DNA of 7,843 bases. Source: Candidatus Solincola jinzensis (GTDB lineage Bacteria > Actinomycetota > Geothermincolia > Geothermincolales > RBG-13-55-18). The position numbers and the translations under genes are program-made. This document shows, one piece after another, positions 1 to 7,843 of the stretch (position 1 is its first letter; each line of letters starts with the position of its first letter). The notes under the pieces were generated by a model. The model did no database searches, was not told the DNA's origin, and saw nothing but the letters and a program-made list of their open reading frames with translations. Location of the stretch: positions 1 to 7,843 of the forward strand of contig JACVJG010000107.1 of the NCBI GenBank assembly GCA_015711875.1. Reading direction: 5' to 3'.

Positions 1-861
1 GATATGATGGTAGCGCACCCCGTCGTATTCGAAGAAGCGCTGGTAATCCCCGGAGGTGCTGATATAGGTGCCGCCGGGAAGCAGCAATGTGGCCAGGTAA
101 CCCTCCCCGCGCGGGTCCATAACCGCAATCCTACAACCGTTCTCCTCCCCACCAGGTTTTTCTCCCAGGGTCAGGGAGGTGCTTATCATATTGACCACCG
201 CCGCCTCCACGCCGCGTTCCCTCAATATCCCGGCCGCCTTATCCAGTGCGTAGCCCTTGGCCAGTCCCCCGAGGTCGATGGCCATCCCCTCCCGCGCGAA
301 CATGACGGTATGCGCCGCGGGATCGAGGAGCAGTTTGTCGGCCCCCACCAACGCAAGGGCTGCCTCTATCTCCTCCCGCGACGGCGGCGGCTCTCCCCTC
401 TCGCTCCTCCCCGTAACATCCCACACGTCTATGAGAGGACCCACGGTTATGTCGAACAAGCCCTGGCTGGACCGGTATACCTGCATCCCTGCCTCCACCA
501 TCTCCCACAGGTCATCGGAGAGGGCCACCGGTCCGGCGGCTGCGTTTGCGTTGACCCTGGAGAGCTCGCTCTCGGGGTCGTAACGGTCGGCAATCCCCTG
601 AAGGCGGAAGAGTTCCTTGAAAGCCTCGTCCACCGCTCCCTCAACAAGCGATTGATCCTTTCCGTAAGCGGTTATGGTCACCAGATCGTCGAGGACATAC
701 TCCTGGCGCTCGAAAGGCCGTTTGGAATAGCCGGGGTTAACGGCCCTGGCCAGCACCACGGCCAGCAGGACCAGCGCGAGGGTGACGGCGATGACGATCG
801 CGGTATCCCTGCGGTTCTTTCTCCCGATTTCCCGGTATACTGACTCCTTCTTTGCCTCCAT
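1..861 (-). CDS. apbE: ApbE-type FAD:protein FMN transferase, membrane-anchored (3' end outside window)
   Basis: ApbE enzymes transfer FMN from FAD to a threonine of target flavoproteins such as RnfD, RnfG, NqrB and NqrC, using Mg2+, outside the cytoplasmic membrane. The visible 287 residues begin with a basic N-terminus and one hydrophobic segment (about 20-40), read as a signal anchor. The family landmarks follow: GLFDITVGPL (134-143), IDLGGLAKGYA (195-205), STSGDYQRFF (268-277) and RYHH (283-286). The frame runs off the left edge, so perhaps 40-60 residues are missing. The usual Asn-x-Gly-Gly segment after the DLGG helix is replaced by NMISTSLTLG (224-233), which is unusual. The start is uncertain: the ATG at 861 has no Shine-Dalgarno but sits 7 bases after a TATACT box. 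An in-frame ATG at 936 would add 25 unlikely residues and also lacks a ribosome binding site. The likely client is RnfD encoded at 4170-5117. The family call is firm; the substrate is inferred. Confidence 0.92.
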   Translation of the reverse strand, partial: MEAKKESVYREIGRKNRRDTAIVIAVTLALVLLAVVLARAVNPGYSKRPFERQEYVLDDLVTITAYGKDQSLVEGAVDEAFKELFRLQGIADRYDPESELSRVNANAAAGPVALSDDLWEMVEAGMQVYRSSQGLFDITVGPLIDVWDVTGRSERGEPPPSREEIEAALALVGADKLLLDPAAHTVMFAREGMAIDLGGLAKGYALDKAAGILRERGVEAAVVNMISTSLTLGEKPGGEENGCRIAVMDPRGEGYLATLLLPGGTYISTSGDYQRFFEYDGVRYHHI

Positions 862-1230
862 GGGCGGTAGTATATCACCAAAGCCGGAAAGCGGTCCTGA
901 CCAGGTCGTTAACGAGACGGTCTTTCTTCTGGGCATGGGGTCTATGCCGGATCGCGGCCGGCCCTGAGGGCGAAAAGCGCGTCCTTGTTCCTCCTGGCGG
1001 GCGATCACTGGCTTGAACATGAAGCATTGCCGGGACCCCATGAGGGACTCATACAGCGGAAGGGAGCCCCGTGAACAGCGGGCGGCGGAATACGAGGCCC
1101 TATACCCCTGTATCCCCTAAGCTCACCGAGGTCCTTTCGAGGCCTGTTTTTTCCAGGAAAGTTCCCGCCCCAGGACGCTGAAACGCCCTCACTCTCCATC
1201 CGGAAGGGCTTACCAGAATCCCGCATCCGG
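862..1230. other. Intergenic stretch without a convincing gene
   Basis: These 369 bases separate the stop of the ATPase gene from the start of apbE. I read both strands and found only short open frames with no recognisable motif and no ribosome binding site. One example is a 33-codon plus-strand frame starting at 1019. A CATCCGG heptamer occurs twice near 1197 and 1224, and a CCTG/CAGG inverted repeat lies near 1142-1157, but neither forms a good terminator. Apart from the possible -10 box next to apbE, I see nothing functional. Confidence 0.5.
869..874 (-). promoter_or_regulatory. Possible -10 box of a leaderless apbE transcript
   Basis: Read on the minus strand, TATACT lies 7 bases before the ATG at 861, so transcription could begin at or next to the start codon. 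No Shine-Dalgarno precedes that ATG, which fits a leaderless mRNA of the kind common in high-GC Gram-positives. No good -35 hexamer is visible, so this is only suggestive. Confidence 0.3.
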
Positions 1231-3783
1231 TCAAGCGCCGTCCACCTGTTCCACCTCGCCCAGCTCCTCCACATGAGGGGGCGCCTCCGGACCGCGGATG
1301 TATCTCTGCATGTAGCGACCCGAGAGCTCCAGCAGCAGTGAAAAGACCGCCGCGATGCCCAGGGCTTGCAGCAACACCACGACGCGCGGCAAATAAAGCT
1401 GGAAGAATTCACGGAACCAGGGAATGGCCAGCACGCCCACGAACGCGCCCGCCATGGCCGCCAGAAGCGCTCCGCGCCAGGAGAGCAGGGGACGCGAAAG
1501 ATACCCGAGCACCGCCAGCCCCACGATGGTAAGCACGATCACCGCCACGGTGCGGGACTCCTCCAGGCTTACGCCGTTGCTCCTGGCCATGGCGTTCCCG
1601 GTAAAAGTGGCCGCCCCAGCGATGAATCCCGCCGGCACCGCGAAATACAACACGCGCCGCAGCAGCCCGGGCCGGTAGCGCCGCTTGCTGCGGGCGAAGG
1701 AGAGGATGAAGGCGGGGATGCCTATGGTAAGGGATCCCACCAGCGAGATATGCCGTGGGAGAAAAGGGTACTCCCAGGCGAGGAGGGCCACGCCGACGGC
1801 CAGCAGAGCCGCGTAAACCGTCTTGGTGAGAAAGAGGTTGGCGACCCTTTCCATGTTGGCCATCACCCTTCTGCCCTCTGCCACCACTCCCGGAAGGGTC
1901 GAGAACCTGCCGTCCAGCAAAACCAGCTGGGCAACGGCCTTGGTGGAAGGAGCGCCCGACCCCATGGCTATGCCCATATCCGCGTCCTTCAGGGCCAGGG
2001 TGTCGTTGACCCCATCCCCCGTCATGGCCACCACGTGACCATGGTGCTGGAGAGCTCGCACCATGAGGCGTTTCTGTTCCGGGATCACGCGTCCGAATAC
2101 CGTCTTCCTGTGCAGGATCTGCGCCAGCTCCTCCTTGTCCTGCGGAAGCTCCCGCGCGTCCACCGGCTCTTCCGCGCCCGGGACCCCCACCCGCGCCGCC
2201 ACCGCGCCCACCGTGCGGGGGTTGTCTCCGGAGATAACCCTGATGCCCACATCCTGGCGCCTGAAATATTCCAGGGTATCGGCCGCGTCCGGGCGCACTT
2301 TTTCCTCGAACACCAGCAAGGCCGCCGGCACCATCCCCTCAGGGGTTTTTTCGCCCGCCACGGCCCTTTCCGCCTTCGCGAAAAGCAGCACCCTCTTTCC
2401 CGAGGCCGCGATCTCGTCAGCCTTTTCTCTTAGCCCCTCTGCTCCCGGAAGCCCCTGCAACAGGACCTCAGGGGCTCCCAGGACCCAAGTATCTCCGCCC
2501 GCAAAGGAAGCGGCACTCCACTTCCAGGCCGAGGAGAACGGCACCACTTCCTCTGCCCGCCATCCTGGGGGAGAGGGGAACGTGGCTTTGAGGGCAGTGA
2601 TGGTGGGATTCTCTGAAGGAGCCGCCGCCGCAAAAGCGCCCAGCGCGTCAATCAGGGCCTCCTCGCCGTTGAGAGACATCATATGCGAGAACTCGAGGGT
2701 TCCCTCGGTTAGCGTGCCCGTCTTGTCCAGGCAGATGACATCGACTTTCGCCAGGCCCTCCACCGCCGGAAGCTCCTGCACCAACACTTTCCGTCGCGCC
2801 AGGGTAACAGCGCTGACCGCGAACACCAGACTGGTGAGGAGCACCAGGCCCTCCGGCACCATACCCACCAGGCCGGCCACCGTGGCCAGGACCGAGTCGT
2901 CGAATGAGCTATGGGTGAGAAGTTGGCTGGTCGCCAGAAGGATGGCCGATGGTATCATCACGTAGGTGATATAGCGCAGGATGGTGTTGATGGCATCACG
3001 GAGGTCCGATTGCACCAGGGCATATCTCCTGGCCTCGGCGGCCAGCTTCCTGGCATAGGCCTCCTCCCCCACCGCCGTGGCCCTATACCTTCCCGCCCCC
3101 GAGGATACGAAGCTCCCGGAGAGCACGGTGTCCCCAGGCCCCTTGGCGACTGGCACCGATTCACCCGTCAACAACGATTCGTCCACTTCAAGCCCGTTTG
3201 AGAACAGCACTATGCCGTCCACGATGATCTGGTCCCCGGCCTGAAGCTCCAGGAGGTCGTCCAGCACAACCTCCTCCCTCGGGAGCTCCAGAGACTCGCC
3301 CTCTCGTACCACCCTCGCCCTCGGCGCGCTGAGGAGCGAGAGCCTGTCCAGGGTGAACTTGGCGCGTAGTTCCTGCACTATCCCTATAAGGGTATTGAAC
3401 ACCAGCACCATTCCGAAGAGGGCGTCCCGCCATGGCCCGATGAAAAGCACCACCACCGCCAGGAACCCCAGGATAGCGTTGAAGCGGTTGAAGACGTTGA
3501 CGCGTATGATGGAGGCTAGGGAGCGGCTGGTCTCGTCCTTTACGGCGTTGGTCTCGCCACGCTCCACGCGCTCCTTCACCTGGAAACCGGCCAGACCCCG
3601 CTCAGGATAGGTTGGGCCCAGATCGCGGAGCTCGACCTGCCCCCCTGTAAGGACCGCTCGACGCATCCCAGGCTCAGGACGGGGTAGCTGCTCCGGAGTC
3701 AAACCCATCTCCTCCCCATGCCCTTGATCTGCCTCCCCAGGCCCTTCCTTGCCGCTTTTACCGCCATTCCCTATGGTGGCCAC
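1231..3783 (-). CDS. ctpE: CtpE-like P-type cation-transporting ATPase
   Basis: This is a membrane pump that uses ATP through a phospho-aspartate intermediate, 850 residues from the GTG at 3783. The actuator loop has TGES (206-209). Transmembrane helix 4 has the VPEGL metal-site motif (309-313). The phosphorylation site is DKTGT, with the catalytic Asp at 353. SGDNP (518-522) and TGDGVND (588-594) complete the P and hinge motifs. There are about ten hydrophobic helices: two near 100-137, two near 270-328 and six after 645, including LTKTVYA (652-658). The PEGL helix, the LTKTVY helix and the segment around VDAREL (541-546) resemble mycobacterial CtpE, which is linked to calcium uptake, so Ca2+ is the best guess; the ion is not proven. 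Family similarity begins near residue 63 (GLAGFQVKERV). The first 60 Gly/Pro/Glu-rich residues may therefore be extra or mis-started; ATGs at 3708 and 3666 are alternatives. No clear terminator follows. Confidence 0.94.
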   Translation of the reverse strand: MATIGNGGKSGKEGPGEADQGHGEEMGLTPEQLPRPEPGMRRAVLTGGQVELRDLGPTYPERGLAGFQVKERVERGETNAVKDETSRSLASIIRVNVFNRFNAILGFLAVVVLFIGPWRDALFGMVLVFNTLIGIVQELRAKFTLDRLSLLSAPRARVVREGESLELPREEVVLDDLLELQAGDQIIVDGIVLFSNGLEVDESLLTGESVPVAKGPGDTVLSGSFVSSGAGRYRATAVGEEAYARKLAAEARRYALVQSDLRDAINTILRYITYVMIPSAILLATSQLLTHSSFDDSVLATVAGLVGMVPEGLVLLTSLVFAVSAVTLARRKVLVQELPAVEGLAKVDVICLDKTGTLTEGTLEFSHMMSLNGEEALIDALGAFAAAAPSENPTITALKATFPSPPGWRAEEVVPFSSAWKWSAASFAGGDTWVLGAPEVLLQGLPGAEGLREKADEIAASGKRVLLFAKAERAVAGEKTPEGMVPAALLVFEEKVRPDAADTLEYFRRQDVGIRVISGDNPRTVGAVAARVGVPGAEEPVDARELPQDKEELAQILHRKTVFGRVIPEQKRLMVRALQHHGHVVAMTGDGVNDTLALKDADMGIAMGSGAPSTKAVAQLVLLDGRFSTLPGVVAEGRRVMANMERVANLFLTKTVYAALLAVGVALLAWEYPFLPRHISLVGSLTIGIPAFILSFARSKRRYRPGLLRRVLYFAVPAGFIAGAATFTGNAMARSNGVSLEESRTVAVIVLTIVGLAVLGYLSRPLLSWRGALLAAMAGAFVGVLAIPWFREFFQLYLPRVVVLLQALGIAAVFSLLLELSGRYMQRYIRGPEAPPHVEELGEVEQVDGA

Positions 3784-4109: not shown

Positions 4110-4142
4110 AGGAAGGAAGACGGGCCGGGTCTCCCCGGCCCG
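4110..4142 (-). terminator. Intrinsic terminator after rnfD
   Basis: The minus strand has CGGGCCGGG, loop GAGA, CCCGGCCCG: a perfect 9-pair GC stem (4121-4142). It is followed by the pyrimidine tract TCTTCCTTCC (4120-4111). It begins 27 bases past the rnfD stop and marks the end of the fdh-rnf operon, which shows that no further rnf gene follows rnfD in this transcript. Confidence 0.85.
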
Positions 4143-4169
4143 CCGTGTTTCACCAAAGGCAGGGACCGC

Positions 4170-5117
4170 TTAAGCCGCCGCCACCTCTCCGAACCTCTTG
4201 GGCTTGAACACCGTGTCCAGCAGGGGCACGAAGGCGTTGCCGATGAGGATGGAGTAGGCCACCGCCCCCGCCGGGGCCAAAAACACGCGGATGATCACCA
4301 CGCACACCCCGATGATGAGGCCGTAGACCACCTGCCCCCAGGTGTTCATGGGGCTGGTGACCCAGTCGGTGGCCATGAAGAAGGCCCCCAGCATGATCCC
4401 GCCGGCCAGGATGTTGTAGAGCCCGTCGGAGCCCACGATGTAGGCGAGCACGAACACCGTGGCCAGGATGGTCACCGGGATGACCCAGCCTATGACCTTG
4501 CGGTAGAGCAGGTAGGCGCCGCCCAAAAGCACCCAGAAGGCCCCCACCTCGGAGATGGCCCCCCCGTAGTTGGCGAAGAGCAGGGCCAGGTAGGAGGGCC
4601 CGGAGCTCTCCAGCCCCTGCTTGATGTACACCAGGGGGGTGGCGGACTGCACGCCGTCATAGCCCGCCTTGAGGAAGCCCAGGTTGCCGGTCCAGGAGGC
4701 CAGGAACCCGGATCCTATGAGCACGAAGACGAACCCGAAGAGGGCGGGGTTGAAGATGTTGCGGCCCAGGCCCCCCATGAGCTCCTTCACCACCACGATG
4801 GCCACAAAGGAGGCGATGATGAGGTTGAGCCACTGGATGCGCGCCGGAAATAGCAGGGCCAGGAGCAGGCCCGTCACCGCCGCGCTGCCGTCGGCCAGGT
4901 TCACCTTCTTCTTGCGCGCCTTGCGCACCGCCCACTCGAAGAACATGCAAGATCCCACCGCCAGGGCCATGTTGAAGAGGGCGTTGTAGGTGAAGGCCAC
5001 CAGGGCGGCGATGGTCACGGGCGCCAGCGCGATGAGCACGTCGCGCATGGCGAGCGCCGTTTGCTCCTTGCTCCTCAGGTGAGGGGGCGGGGTTACGACC
5101 AGGTTGTCCAGAGCCAT
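4170..5117 (-). CDS. rnfD: RnfD, membrane subunit with covalent FMN site
   Basis: RnfD/NqrB proteins are integral membrane flavoproteins that pass electrons inside ion-pumping Rnf and Nqr complexes. The 315 residues are close to the family length and contain eight to ten hydrophobic segments. Family blocks in order are DGSAAVTGLLLALLFPA (76-92), KELMGGLGRNIFNPALFG (111-128), DGVQSATPL (154-162), GAFFMATDWVTSP (244-256) and the SILIGNAFVPLLD helix (289-301). Thr160 in SATP is the expected FMN attachment site for an ApbE enzyme such as the one encoded at 1-861. The ATG at 5117 has GGAGG 9 bases upstream and lies 15 bases after the rnfC stop. A terminator follows at once, so RnfG, RnfE, RnfA and RnfB are not encoded downstream as they usually would be. 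The partner could therefore be the formate dehydrogenase encoded upstream. The family call is firm. Confidence 0.96.
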   Translation of the reverse strand: MALDNLVVTPPPHLRSKEQTALAMRDVLIALAPVTIAALVAFTYNALFNMALAVGSCMFFEWAVRKARKKKVNLADGSAAVTGLLLALLFPARIQWLNLIIASFVAIVVVKELMGGLGRNIFNPALFGFVFVLIGSGFLASWTGNLGFLKAGYDGVQSATPLVYIKQGLESSGPSYLALLFANYGGAISEVGAFWVLLGGAYLLYRKVIGWVIPVTILATVFVLAYIVGSDGLYNILAGGIMLGAFFMATDWVTSPMNTWGQVVYGLIIGVCVVIIRVFLAPAGAVAYSILIGNAFVPLLDTVFKPKRFGEVAAA

Positions 5118-5132
5118 ACTCTATCGCCTCCT

Positions 5133-6452
5133 CTACTTCTTCTTCAGGGCCGCGATCTCGGCCTTGGCCTTGCGCACGTATTGCACGTGGGGGATGTAGG
5201 CGGGGCAGGAGAAGGAGCAGCAGCCGCACTCGAAGCAGTCCAGCGCCCCCCACATCTCCGCCTTGTCCCACTGCCCCCGGCGGGCGGACTGCACGATGAA
5301 GTTGGGGGAGAGGAACATGGGGCAGGCCTCCACGCACTTGCCGCAGCGCACGCACTCCCCCTCCTCGCCCAGGTCCACCACGTCCGAGGTGAGCACCACC
5401 ACCCCCGAGGTGCCCTTGACCACCGAGGCGCGGGTGTCGGACTGCGCCCAGCCGGTCATGGGGCCGCCCATGATGAGCTTGGCGGGGTTGCCCACGAACC
5501 CCCCGCAGGCGTCCAGGAGCACCTGGATGGGGGTGCCGATGGCCGCCAGCAGGTTGGCGGGCTCGCGCACCCCGGGGCCGGTGACCGTGAGCACCCGCTC
5601 ATAGAGGGGCTTGCCCCAGGACGCCGCCTCGAACAGCGCCACCGCGGTGCCCACGTTCTGCACCAGGCAGCCCACCTCGCTGGGGAGCTTGCCCGGGGGG
5701 ACCTTCCTTCCCGTGAGGGCGAAGATGAGCATCTTCTCCGCTCCCTCCGGGTACTTGACCTCCAGTATCTCCACCTCCACGTCGGAAAGCCCGGAGGTCT
5801 TGGCGCGCAGGGCGTCGGCGGCGTCCATCTTGTTGGCCTCCACCCCGATGATCACCTTGCCCGCCCCCACCGCGGTCTTGAGCAGGCGGGCGCCGGCGAT
5901 CAGGTCCTCGGGCCTCTCGAGCATCAGCCGGTGGTCGCAGGTGAGGAAGGGCTCGCACTCGCAGGCGTTGATGATCACCGTGTCCACCGGCTTGTCGGCG
6001 GGAGGGGTGAGCTTTACGTGGGTGGGGAAGGCGGCTCCCCCCATGCCCACCAGCCCCGCCTCGCGGGCGATCTCCCGCACCTCCTCGGCGCTGAGGGCCT
6101 CGAGGTCCTTGCCGGGCTTCTTCTGGAACTCCGGCTGCTCCGGGTCGGCGGTGATGACCACGCTGCGCACCTTGGCGCCGGTGAAGTTGGGGACCTCGGT
6201 GATCTCCTTCACCACCCCCGCCACCGAGGAGTGCACGGGGGCGGAGACGAAGGCTTCCGTGGCCCCGATCTTCTGGCCCACCTCCACGCGGTCGCCCTCC
6301 TTGACCAGGGGCTCGTTGGGGGCCCCGATGTGCTGCTGCAGGGGGATGATGACCTCTTTGGGCACCGGGGCGCGCTTGATGGCCTTGCCCGAGGCCAACT
6401 CCTTGTTGTAGGGGGGATGGATGCCTCCCTTGAAGGTCTTTGCCTCCGCCAT
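5133..6452 (-). CDS. rnfC: RnfC, NADH/FMN and iron-sulfur subunit
   Basis: RnfC is the cytoplasmic subunit of Rnf complexes that exchanges electrons with NAD(H) through FMN and two [4Fe-4S] clusters. The 439 residues match the short form of the family. The N-terminal part has FKGGIHPP (7-14) and a biotinyl-like barrel region. The NuoF-like core has the glycine-rich loop GLVGMGGAAFPTHVKL (133-148), NACECEPFLTCDHR (162-175), KYPEGAEK (233-240) and LVQNVGTA (263-270). Cluster ligands are Cys367/370/373/377 and Cys406/409/412/416, so it looks fully functional. The ATG at 6452 is preferred because GGGAGG at 6461-6466 sits 8 bases upstream. A GTG at 6461 would add three residues but overlaps that ribosome binding site. 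The ATG follows the fdhB stop after one base, so translation is probably coupled. A stand-alone RnfC-like protein paired with the dehydrogenase is less likely, because rnfD follows directly. Confidence 0.96.
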   Translation of the reverse strand: MAEAKTFKGGIHPPYNKELASGKAIKRAPVPKEVIIPLQQHIGAPNEPLVKEGDRVEVGQKIGATEAFVSAPVHSSVAGVVKEITEVPNFTGAKVRSVVITADPEQPEFQKKPGKDLEALSAEEVREIAREAGLVGMGGAAFPTHVKLTPPADKPVDTVIINACECEPFLTCDHRLMLERPEDLIAGARLLKTAVGAGKVIIGVEANKMDAADALRAKTSGLSDVEVEILEVKYPEGAEKMLIFALTGRKVPPGKLPSEVGCLVQNVGTAVALFEAASWGKPLYERVLTVTGPGVREPANLLAAIGTPIQVLLDACGGFVGNPAKLIMGGPMTGWAQSDTRASVVKGTSGVVVLTSDVVDLGEEGECVRCGKCVEACPMFLSPNFIVQSARRGQWDKAEMWGALDCFECGCCSFSCPAYIPHVQYVRKAKAEIAALKKK

Positions 6453-6453
6453 C

Positions 6454-7368
6454 TCACTCACCTCCCTGGGCGCGCTCGAGGCCCTCGTTGCGCTTGTTGA
6501 TCACGTAGCCCACGCCGGCAGCCGCCACCAGTCCCACCAGGGCCAGCCCTCCCCAGGGGGCGCCGGGCTTGACCAGGGTCTCCCACACCGTGACCCCGGC
6601 GGGCACGGAGGGCTTCTCCGGCAGGCCGTAGCGGGCGGGCTCGTCCTCCAGCACGTAGATGTAGTGGAGGCCTCCCACCTGGTCCAGGCCGTAGATGCGG
6701 GCCTTTTCCTTTTTGCGCTCCGCCTTGAGGAAGGCCACCCTCTCCTCGGCCTTCTTCGCCATCTCCTCGCGGGCGCCGAAGTCCAGGGCCCCGGAGGTGC
6801 AGGTCTGCACGCAGGCGGGGCGGTTGCGGGAAGGCACCGGGTCGGGAGCCTTGGCGAGGTCCGGGGAGGCCTGCTCGGGGGTGGGGAAGGCCTCGGGGTC
6901 CTGGGTGATGCGGTCGAAGCAGAGCACGCAGCGGCCGATGGCCTTCTCGGCCTCGTCGTAGCGGCAGGCCTGGAAGGGGCAGGTGGCCACGCAGTAGTTG
7001 CAGCCTATGCACTGCTTGGGGTCGGTGCGCACCAGCCAGGCCTCGGGGTCGTCCGCCGAGACCTTGTACTTCTTGGTGGCCCCGGAGGGGCAGACCTTGA
7101 CGCAGGTGGCGTCGGTGCAGTGCATGCACTGGTACTTGGTGAAGTACCAGTAGAGCTCGTCGTCGGAGGCCGGGCGCTTCTCGGGCTCGTTGAAGAGGAT
7201 GCGCATCCAGCACTGGGCGGTGAGTTCGAGAGGGTTCTCATAGGTGCCCTCGTTGTCCGTCCTGGTGTAGGTGCGCTGGTTCCAGTTCTTGCAGGCTACC
7301 TGGCAGGCCCGGCACCCCGTGCACTTGCTGGCGTCGAAGAGGATCGCCTTGTCCGTCGGGTTAGCCAT
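6454..7368 (-). CDS. fdhB: Formate dehydrogenase beta subunit, FDH-N type, four [4Fe-4S] clusters and C-terminal anchor
   Basis: This subunit carries electrons from the catalytic subunit to the membrane partner. The 304 residues hold four cysteine sets: Cys16/19/22/26, Cys81/84/89/93, Cys120/123/126/130 and Cys147/150/186/190, as expected for four [4Fe-4S] clusters. The segment PACVQTCTSGALDFG (184-198) and the GGLHYIYVL stretch (232-240) follow E. coli FdnH closely. A hydrophobic helix (about 272-290), followed by NKRNEG, matches the single FdnH transmembrane anchor that contacts the cytochrome b subunit. No such cytochrome gene is adjacent; rnfC starts one base after the stop. No Tat signal is seen, as expected for a beta subunit exported with its partner. 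Small oddities are CTSG in place of CPTG in the fourth cluster set and an extra Cys135. GGAAGG 9 bases before the ATG supports the start. Beta subunits of related molybdoenzymes are similar, but the neighbour favours formate dehydrogenase. Confidence 0.93.
   Translation of the reverse strand: MANPTDKAILFDASKCTGCRACQVACKNWNQRTYTRTDNEGTYENPLELTAQCWMRILFNEPEKRPASDDELYWYFTKYQCMHCTDATCVKVCPSGATKKYKVSADDPEAWLVRTDPKQCIGCNYCVATCPFQACRYDEAEKAIGRCVLCFDRITQDPEAFPTPEQASPDLAKAPDPVPSRNRPACVQTCTSGALDFGAREEMAKKAEERVAFLKAERKKEKARIYGLDQVGGLHYIYVLEDEPARYGLPEKPSVPAGVTVWETLVKPGAPWGGLALVGLVAAAGVGYVINKRNEGLERAQGGE
6461..6466 (-). promoter_or_regulatory. Ribosome binding site that decides the rnfC start
   Basis: GGGAGG on the minus strand lies inside the last codons of fdhB, 8 bases before the ATG at 6452. 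It favours that ATG over the in-frame GTG at 6461, whose first base is the last base of this site. Confidence 0.75.
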
Positions 7369-7369
7369 A

Positions 7370-7843
7370 TCACTTCACCTTCCTTAGGTTCACCAGGAAC
7401 GCTTTCGACTCGGGGATGGTGGTGTTGGCATCGCCCACATGGGGTGTGAGCTGGTTGGCGGCGTAGTTCTTCTTGGAGATGCCGTTCCTCTCCGGGCCGC
7501 CGGGGAAGAGGCCGATGTAGCCATAATGCCAGGTCATCCCCACGATATGGACTTTCCTGGTGTTTCCATTGTCCCCGATCTCCAGCGGCAGCGGCTTGAG
7601 GCGGGTGGTGACCACCGCCACCCCCTGCACCTTGCCGCGCAGGCTTTCCACCTCCACCAGGTCACCCTTCTTGATCCCCAGCTCCTCGGCGAGCTCCACC
7701 GAGATCTCCACGAAGTGCTCGGGCATGGCCTCTCCCAGCCAGGAGTTGTTGCGGGTCATCTGGCCCGCCTGCCAGTGCTCGGTGACGCGGTAGGTGGTGC
7801 CGATGTAGGGGAACCTCGGGTCTCCGACCTCAGCGAAGCCCCA
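7370..7843 (-). CDS. fdhA: Formate dehydrogenase catalytic (alpha) subunit, C-terminal end only
   Basis: Only the last 157 residues lie in the window; the start and the active site are beyond the right edge. This is the molybdopterin dinucleotide-binding domain found at the C-terminus of formate dehydrogenase alpha chains. Landmarks are FPYIGTTYRVTEHW near the window edge, EHFVEISVELAEELGIKKGD, and LTPHVGDANTTIPESKAFLV near the end. The last closely parallels the end of E. coli FdnG (LTPFVGDANT and so on). Catalytic residues, a selenocysteine codon and any Tat signal cannot be judged from here, so neither metal nor cell side is settled. The TGA at 7370-7372 lies one base before the fdhB ATG, as expected for subunits of one enzyme. 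A methionine at 7759 is internal, because the frame continues to the edge with family-like sequence. Confidence 0.93.
   Translation of the reverse strand, partial: WGFAEVGDPRFPYIGTTYRVTEHWQAGQMTRNNSWLGEAMPEHFVEISVELAEELGIKKGDLVEVESLRGKVQGVAVVTTRLKPLPLEIGDNGNTRKVHIVGMTWHYGYIGLFPGGPERNGISKKNYAANQLTPHVGDANTTIPESKAFLVNLRKVK

Follow-up and report, generated by a model that had tools for sequence, protein, structure and literature searches.

The closest described relatives of the locus considered here are the Rnf complex (RnfCDGEAB) and formate dehydrogenase N (FDH-N; FdnGHI). The locus is a four-gene operon, fdhA, fdhB, rnfC, and rnfD, on a stretch of DNA of 7,843 nucleotides (contig JACVJG010000107.1; "the window" below means this whole stretch). 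Its gene order, its conservation among relatives, and the cofactor residues of its products suggest that FdhA, FdhB, RnfC, and RnfD probably form one membrane complex through which electrons would move electrogenically between the formate/CO2 couple on the outside and NAD+/NADH (nicotinamide adenine dinucleotide) inside the cell, with FdhAB taking the place of RnfB, RnfA/E, and RnfG.

In Rnf, electrons pass from ferredoxin through RnfB and RnfA/E to RnfG on the outside and return through the flavin mononucleotide (FMN) and then the riboflavin of RnfD to the clusters and FMN of RnfC and finally to NAD+, according to the available portions of three reports (PMC11889175, PMC9588780, PMC12174285). 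Like the complexes of Acetobacterium woodii (9eri) and Clostridium tetanomorphum (7zc6), the operon encodes an RnfC with a NuoF-like FMN domain and two [4Fe-4S] clusters and an RnfD with the FMN-bearing threonine and the riboflavin site, and it would share with them the leg from RnfD through RnfC to NAD+. It differs in that the RnfA/E pair, RnfB, and RnfG are not encoded with RnfC and RnfD, either in the window or in 58 of the 80 related loci described below, and the donor would be an exported formate dehydrogenase. Electrons would also cross the membrane one way, instead of following the U-shaped path of Rnf, with no ion-pumping RnfA/E. The likeness to FDH-N of Escherichia coli (1kqf) lies in an alpha subunit exported by the twin-arginine translocation (Tat) pathway, with a TGA codon in most kin (both features being read from kin), and in a four-cluster beta subunit with a C-terminal helix, but the cytochrome b gamma subunit FdnI is replaced by RnfD and RnfC, and the predicted acceptor is NAD(H) rather than quinone. 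A cytoplasmic NAD-dependent formate dehydrogenase would fit neither the Tat motifs of kin nor the presence of RnfD in the operon.

Several other systems use parts of the same machinery. The NQR/RNF-like two-subunit systems are described, in the accessible parts of the papers, as an RnfD-NqrF fusion with an RnfG-like protein in which the RnfD flavinylation site is not conserved (PMC8238504, PMC10979944). These systems (Meheust) resemble the operon in using NqrB/RnfD as a membrane wire from NAD(P)H to the outside, whereas here RnfC is separate, the threonine is kept, and RnfG had no match in 58 loci at E 1e-5. RnfC-type proteins outside Rnf have precedents in A. woodii RnfC2-MetVF, where RnfC2 was postulated to be the NADH-binding subunit (PMC6895022), and in PrdC, assigned to proline reductase by model name, but the available excerpts mention neither RnfD nor an exported dehydrogenase with them. 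An exported formate dehydrogenase and a partial Rnf were reported in one soda-lake genome, that of Syntrophonatronum acetioxidans (Timmers 2018; PMC6295475), but the available part of that account does not link the two and reads RnfD as a Na+ or H+ pump. The accessible sections of the open-access literature, subscription papers being outside this scope, yielded no description of RnfCD as the partner of an exported formate dehydrogenase. The architecture is best described as a variant of FDH-N and Rnf, and it may be one instance of a more widely used half-Rnf module.

A conserved operon with intact cofactor sites

The four genes all lie on the minus strand (Table 1), separated by 1, 1, and 15 bases, and the coordinates agree with the order and spacing given by an earlier reading made from the window's letters (the sequence-only reading). 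That reading had also pointed out that no cytochrome b gamma gene follows fdhB and that no genes for RnfG, RnfE, RnfA, or RnfB follow rnfD, and both statements hold: fdnI was not found in the window or in kin operons, and neither rnfG, rnfE, rnfA, or rnfB nor a cytochrome b gene occurs in the 4.2 kb of the window that remain after rnfD.

RnfD of the window is 94 to 95% identical to its counterparts in the Actinomycetota genome Ch49 (L001) and in Candidatus Solincola daggyaiensis (L002), and the FdhA C terminus is 91% identical to that of L001. Judged by the RnfD identities, the source of the window is close kin of Candidatus Solincola, in the Actinomycetota. The window ends inside fdhA, and the stretch upstream of position 7843 was inferred from kin loci, where the order is tatC (over its cut-off), an fdhE-like gene (below its cut-off), fdhA, fdhB, rnfC, and rnfD. 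Matches to TatC and FdhE precede the operon in 8 of 9 Solincola-type loci, these being all that reach that far, and no rnf or fdnI genes were found upstream of fdhA in these 8. The four genes stand together in all nine long-enough loci among L001 to L011; L002 and L009 begin inside rnfC and were not counted. The sequence-only reading had named two findings that would refute it, an rnfGEAB or fdnI set upstream in the same operon and an order confined to one genome; kin carry FdhE-like and TatC genes instead, and numerous genomes, from two or more phyla, share the order.

How the operon is distributed was examined in the best 80 of 384 loci with RnfD relatives, which is a biased sample in that it consists of best matches. 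Scored for partners by gene presence anywhere in the locus, 38 of these held FdhA without RnfA/E/G/B and 22 a full Rnf, while the rest held FdhB only (7), a molybdoenzyme (4), or a hydrogenase (2) or were cut or partnerless (7). At E 1e-5, RnfA/E/G/B had no match in 58 of the 80, including the 38 with FdhA, whereas all 15 of the control loci picked by their RnfA/E match showed three or more of the four at this threshold. The order is mostly A-B-C-D, with rearrangements to C-D-A-B (L022, L052, L065), A-B-D-C (L056), and A-C-D-B (L027, L042) through which the set stays together. Chance adjacency of the four genes is ruled out by the recurrence of the same order across many genomes, and a broken or contig-split Rnf operon is ruled out by the 31 of 58 stand-alone loci with at least 4 kb flanking both sides of RnfC/D, together with the separate RnfA/E loci.

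The phyla that surely carry the operon are Actinomycetota, where RnfD matched in 62 of 246 sampled genomes, and Bacillota; the carriers include Anoxynatronum buryatiense Su22 (L020), and many are labelled Syntrophomonadaceae. Three loci with other labels, "Desulfovibrio" (L016), "Thioalkalivibrio" (L039), and "Dehalococcoidia" (L030), are placed within Bacillota by the trees; these may be mis-binned or transferred and were not counted as phyla. In genome G014, labelled Desulfovibrio, the stand-alone RnfD (L016) and the Rnf RnfD (L160) both group with Bacillota, so that mislabelling, a mixed bin, or transfer is likely.

That both Rnf subunits keep their key residues, as first noted in the window, extends to the whole stand-alone set. 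Thr160, Asn123, Asp251, and Glu190 are kept in all 71 stand-alone RnfD rows, a count that includes the window and 10 rows without a recognised partner, and the eight cluster cysteines and three FMN-loop glycines of RnfC are kept in 57 of 57 rows. Before counting, we removed duplicate rows and any match that fell short of three quarters of 250 (RnfD) or 350 (RnfC) residues; the RnfD rows then went from 110 to 99 and the RnfC rows from 93 to 85. The only Pfam domain of the window's RnfD is PF03116, and the top structural matches of its AlphaFold model (mean predicted local distance difference test score, 77.9) are the RnfD subunits of three solved Rnf complexes (query template modeling score, 0.82 to 0.84). 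Two candidate markers of the stand-alone proteins were dropped: RnfC Cys175 (present in the window and in 56 of 56 rows but in 0 of 29 on the other side), as C. tetanomorphum Rnf has this cysteine too, and RnfD Ala287, which A. vinelandii Rnf also has. The outer linker of RnfD shows lower identity, which we did not take as proof of docking because loops vary anyway.

On the dehydrogenase side, FdhB matches E. coli FdnH (1kqf_B; 3.4e-48), its 16 cysteines are invariant in 17 of 17 rows, and the rows end in one hydrophobic helix, two short L048 fragments excepted. The FDH-N alpha score of the fdhA piece falls below the cut-off in the profile search, as expected for a fragment. Among 34 FdhA N termini of kin, 33 carry the Tat motif [ST]RRxF[LI]K and the other reads TRREFLR, and by this signal FdhA of kin is a Tat-exported protein. 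The active-site residue (U191 in L003, U195 in L001) is encoded by an in-frame TGA in 31 of the 34 and by a Cys codon in the other 3.

Relation to the cellular Rnf and to quinone partners

Of the genome searches that the sequence-only reading had proposed, those for RnfA/E, FdnI, and NrfD were run in kin genomes. The RnfA/E pair (PF02508) is present in 12 of 13 Solincola-type genomes, where its coordinates place it apart from the operon and next to a different RnfD, and RnfC is also present in all seven of these loci examined. It could be supposed, given that RnfA/E is encoded elsewhere in these 12 genomes and in 31 of 32 other carriers, that the operon supplies paralogous copies of RnfC and RnfD to the RnfGEAB of the main Rnf, so that the formate dehydrogenase docks on a hybrid complex. 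We consider this quite improbable. The RnfA/E pairs already have their own RnfD in all 12 Solincola-type genomes and their own RnfC in the 7 loci examined, and among 15 other RnfA/E loci, 10 hold both RnfC and RnfD (2 are cut and 3 are Nqr-like). One genome, G011 (Candidatus Geothermincola primus), whose completeness is not stated, has the operon and no RnfA/E match.

Phylogeny also speaks against a hybrid complex. In the RnfD tree a single branch (support 99/95) divides 70 stand-alone rows from 29 Rnf/Nqr rows, and in the RnfC tree a single branch (support 100/98) divides 25 Rnf rows from 57 others, with the long-branched stand-alone RnfC of L056 adjoining the Rnf side. Both trees are unrooted, and 14 Bacteroidales Rnf loci were left out of both, as was the fragment L136 from the RnfD tree. 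By these trees, the stand-alone RnfC and RnfD are phylogenetically separate and do not group with those of Rnf. Two further RnfD genes (L132:7794-8954 and L135:4841-5938), with no recognised partners nearby, fall near the hydrogenase type described below.

The membrane partners that would normally serve an FDH-N were not found in the same genomes. FdnI, NrfD, and MqnA each had no match in the 13 Solincola-type genomes, MenD had none over its cut-off, with sub-cut-off matches in all 13 (it was judged by cut-off alone, since 14 of 14 controls also matched at E 0.001), and PF01292 cytochrome b had none in these 13 and A. buryatiense. Among the 32 other carriers FdnI was not found over its cut-off, with one weak match in G040. 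The completeness of the genomes is not stated, so these absences are provisional, and the MqnA and MenD searches covered the 13 Solincola-type genomes.

RnfCD pairs beside other exported enzymes

Two points refine the sequence-only reading: other exported enzymes, too, are accompanied by RnfCD pairs of this family, and RnfA/E usually lies elsewhere in the genome. One such enzyme in the Solincola-type genomes is a Tat [NiFe] hydrogenase, where RnfC and RnfD come after the small subunit, the large subunit, and a membrane-like protein of ~165 residues, for which the L126 copy gave no Pfam or NCBIfam match. Eight such loci were found (L119 [3523-9284], L120, L122, L126, L127, L128, L130, and L137), and their RnfD is longer, with an extended Asn123-Glu190 stretch, which is the outer linker. 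A third type combines RnfC, RnfD, a Tat PhsA-like molybdoenzyme, and a TorD-like chaperone (L012:1-4473, L013, and L014:1974-8100); an FdhB-like gene precedes this set in L014, the other two loci being truncated. Three stand-alone RnfCD loci occur in A. buryatiense (L020, L171, and L172). For the RnfC-RnfD pair of L171 (4549-11341), which is 38/33% identical, no adjacent FdhB-like match was found, and a flavoprotein that resembles, by eye, FMN-binding fumarate reductases lies a few kilobases away.

Within the seven genomes that hold both systems, the formate dehydrogenase and hydrogenase copies of RnfC are 61 to 77% identical and those of RnfD 40 to 46%. These identities suggest that RnfC can be exchanged between the systems and that RnfD is specific to its partner, the pattern expected were RnfD to face the partner enzyme. 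We lean toward the view that RnfCD is a portable half-Rnf membrane module, recruited by unrelated exported enzymes (formate dehydrogenase, [NiFe] hydrogenase, and the PhsA-like molybdoenzyme) as their link to NAD(H), which would provide anaerobes that lack quinones with a reversible electrogenic half-loop.

The same pairs bear on the unlikely alternative that FdhAB donates to a different acceptor, be it an extracytoplasmic carrier or some other protein of the membrane, and that RnfCD is an independent, co-transcribed NAD(H) flavoprotein pair. The occurrence of RnfCD beside other enzymes and the A. buryatiense pair at L171, with no FdhB-like match adjoining, would fit such independence, but the four genes of the operon remain together through rearranged orders, and the hydrogenase loci of Solincola have an RnfD clade of their own. 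Moreover, FdhB keeps its membrane helix, yet none of the 13 genomes has an FdnI, NrfD, or PF01292 match.

A proposed electron path and its consequences

Taking the four proteins as one complex, we infer its formation, electron path, reversibility, and coupling as follows. FdhAB would be exported in folded form by Tat, with the FdhB C-terminal helix anchoring it on the outer face. Electrons would travel along its [4Fe-4S] clusters to the FMN that RnfD binds covalently (Thr160, in the outer leaflet), then to the RnfD riboflavin on the inner side, the two [4Fe-4S] clusters of RnfC, the RnfC FMN, and NAD+. FdhAB would thus stand in for RnfB, RnfA/E, and the RnfG shuttle, and the wire would link formate outside to NAD(H) inside without quinones. 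Rnf structures make RnfC and RnfD an inward leg that FdhAB could feed, which fits the earlier suggestion of a distinct membrane formate:NAD(H) oxidoreductase whose dehydrogenase replaces the ferredoxin-side half. That suggestion is supported as an architecture, its function being predicted from sequence; we would refine the replaced half to RnfB, RnfA/E, and RnfG and add that the dehydrogenase is predicted from kin to be exported by Tat. The available part of Kumar 2025 describes RnfD as "only involved in electron transfer" (PMC11889175).

Because two electrons would cross the membrane per formate, the reaction would be electrogenic, with membrane potential generated when formate is oxidised and consumed when NADH drives the reduction of CO2. 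The standard potentials for formate-to-NAD+ transfer are about -430 and -320 mV. Moving two charges against about 150 mV makes this transfer energetically marginal, so that its direction would depend on conditions. Excess formate would charge the membrane, and in syntrophs NADH could be oxidised outward, helped by the potential. A sub-case of the proposed complex, compatible with the main reading, is that it normally runs as an NADH-driven CO2 reductase, spending potential and making formate outside for interspecies electron transfer. An inside-negative potential helps outward electron movement, and the Syntrophomonadaceae labels of many carriers point the same way, but acetyl-CoA synthase in the Solincola group (a strong match in 12 of 13 genomes and a weak one in G012; not found in A. 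buryatiense) fits formate/H2 as donor, and sequence cannot tell direction. We regard this sub-case as possible but somewhat doubtful.

Beyond this marginal energetics, a number of points weigh against the proposed complex. RnfA/E is also encoded in 12 of the 13 Solincola-type genomes, which makes sharing with Rnf possible, and exceeds its cut-off in 31 of the 32 other carriers. Relaxing the threshold to E 1e-4 brings in a weak match for one of the four Rnf proteins at a single stand-alone locus among the 58, L015, and in 27 of the 58 the sequence flanking RnfC/D is shorter than 4 kb on one or both sides. The RnfD of L172, a stand-alone locus added later, has Ser at the Thr160 position. The FdhA N terminus is absent from the window itself, the Tat evidence coming from kin, and the four-protein complex is proposed from genes and single-chain predictions. 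RnfD matched in 110 of 148 sampled genomes of A. buryatiense's class; of 10 RnfD places examined there, the 2 stand-alone ones are both in A. buryatiense, and the 8 extra places in other genomes are all Rnf/Nqr, so that the half-Rnf design is not general in that class. Finally, the C. tetanomorphum Rnf paper, in its available part, assigns RnfD an ion-translocating role (PMC9588780); if RnfD moves ions, coupling would differ from the scheme above.

The surroundings of the operon add a candidate accessory gene. ApbE is the enzyme that flavinylates RnfD-type proteins, according to the sources available in part, and the product of the apbE gene near the operon, in the window and in nine kin loci, is a candidate flavinylating enzyme for RnfD. 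In L002 to L008 a P-type ATPase gene and then apbE lie downstream, and in L009 and L011 apbE is found without the ATPase, which is probably not part of the complex; L011 also has selB and selA downstream, identified by eye. The strong terminator first read after rnfD stands in part: the hairpin is real, whereas termination there is likely and a consensus terminator scan did not list it. For rnfC the ATG start was taken; an alternative GTG at 6461 is possible and would overlap fdhB.

Table 1. Features of the window, in window coordinates
Feature	Position	Strand	Evidence
fdhA, C-terminal 157 residues, FDH-N-type catalytic subunit	7370..7843	-	Molydop_binding and end of FDH-N alpha model
fdhB, FdnH-type four-cluster Fe-S subunit with C-terminal hydrophobic helix	6454..7368	-	FDH-beta is best NCBIfam model, below its cut-off
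rnfC, NAD(H)/FMN subunit with two [4Fe-4S] motifs	5133..6452	-	TIGR01945 over cut-off; 7zc6_C, 3.7e-132
rnfD, integral flavin-binding membrane subunit	4170..5117	-	TIGR01946 over cut-off; 7zc6_D, 2e-65
RnfD Asn123 codon, riboflavin ligand	4749..4751	-	Alignment to solved RnfD
RnfD Thr160 codon, equivalent of FMN-bearing Thr153/Thr156 of solved Rnf	4638..4640	-	Alignment to solved RnfD
RnfD Asp251 codon, riboflavin ligand	4365..4367	-	Alignment to solved RnfD
G+C-rich hairpin, 11 pairs, T/C-rich tail, 3' of rnfD, likely terminator	~4119..4144	-	Minimum free energy z -2.8, 96-base stretch
P-type cation ATPase, between rnfD and apbE	1231..3783	-	Profile matches; same place in L002-L008
apbE, FAD (flavin adenine dinucleotide):protein FMN transferase, runs off window, true start probably internal	1..1041	-	Profile matches

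Acetogens are usually sorted by whether they conserve energy through Rnf or Ech, as the accessible part of one account puts it (PMC10213532). The half-loop, as part of the portable-module reading that we moderately favor, would be neither Rnf, Ech, nor quinone based. If this is true, there would be a further coupling site, joining formate or H2 outside to NAD(H) inside through two Rnf subunits, and the use of exported dehydrogenases without cytochrome b would be explained. A named strain that carries the operon, Anoxynatronum buryatiense Su22, makes the proposal testable. Rnf itself would then be built from separable halves, of which the inward half can work alone.

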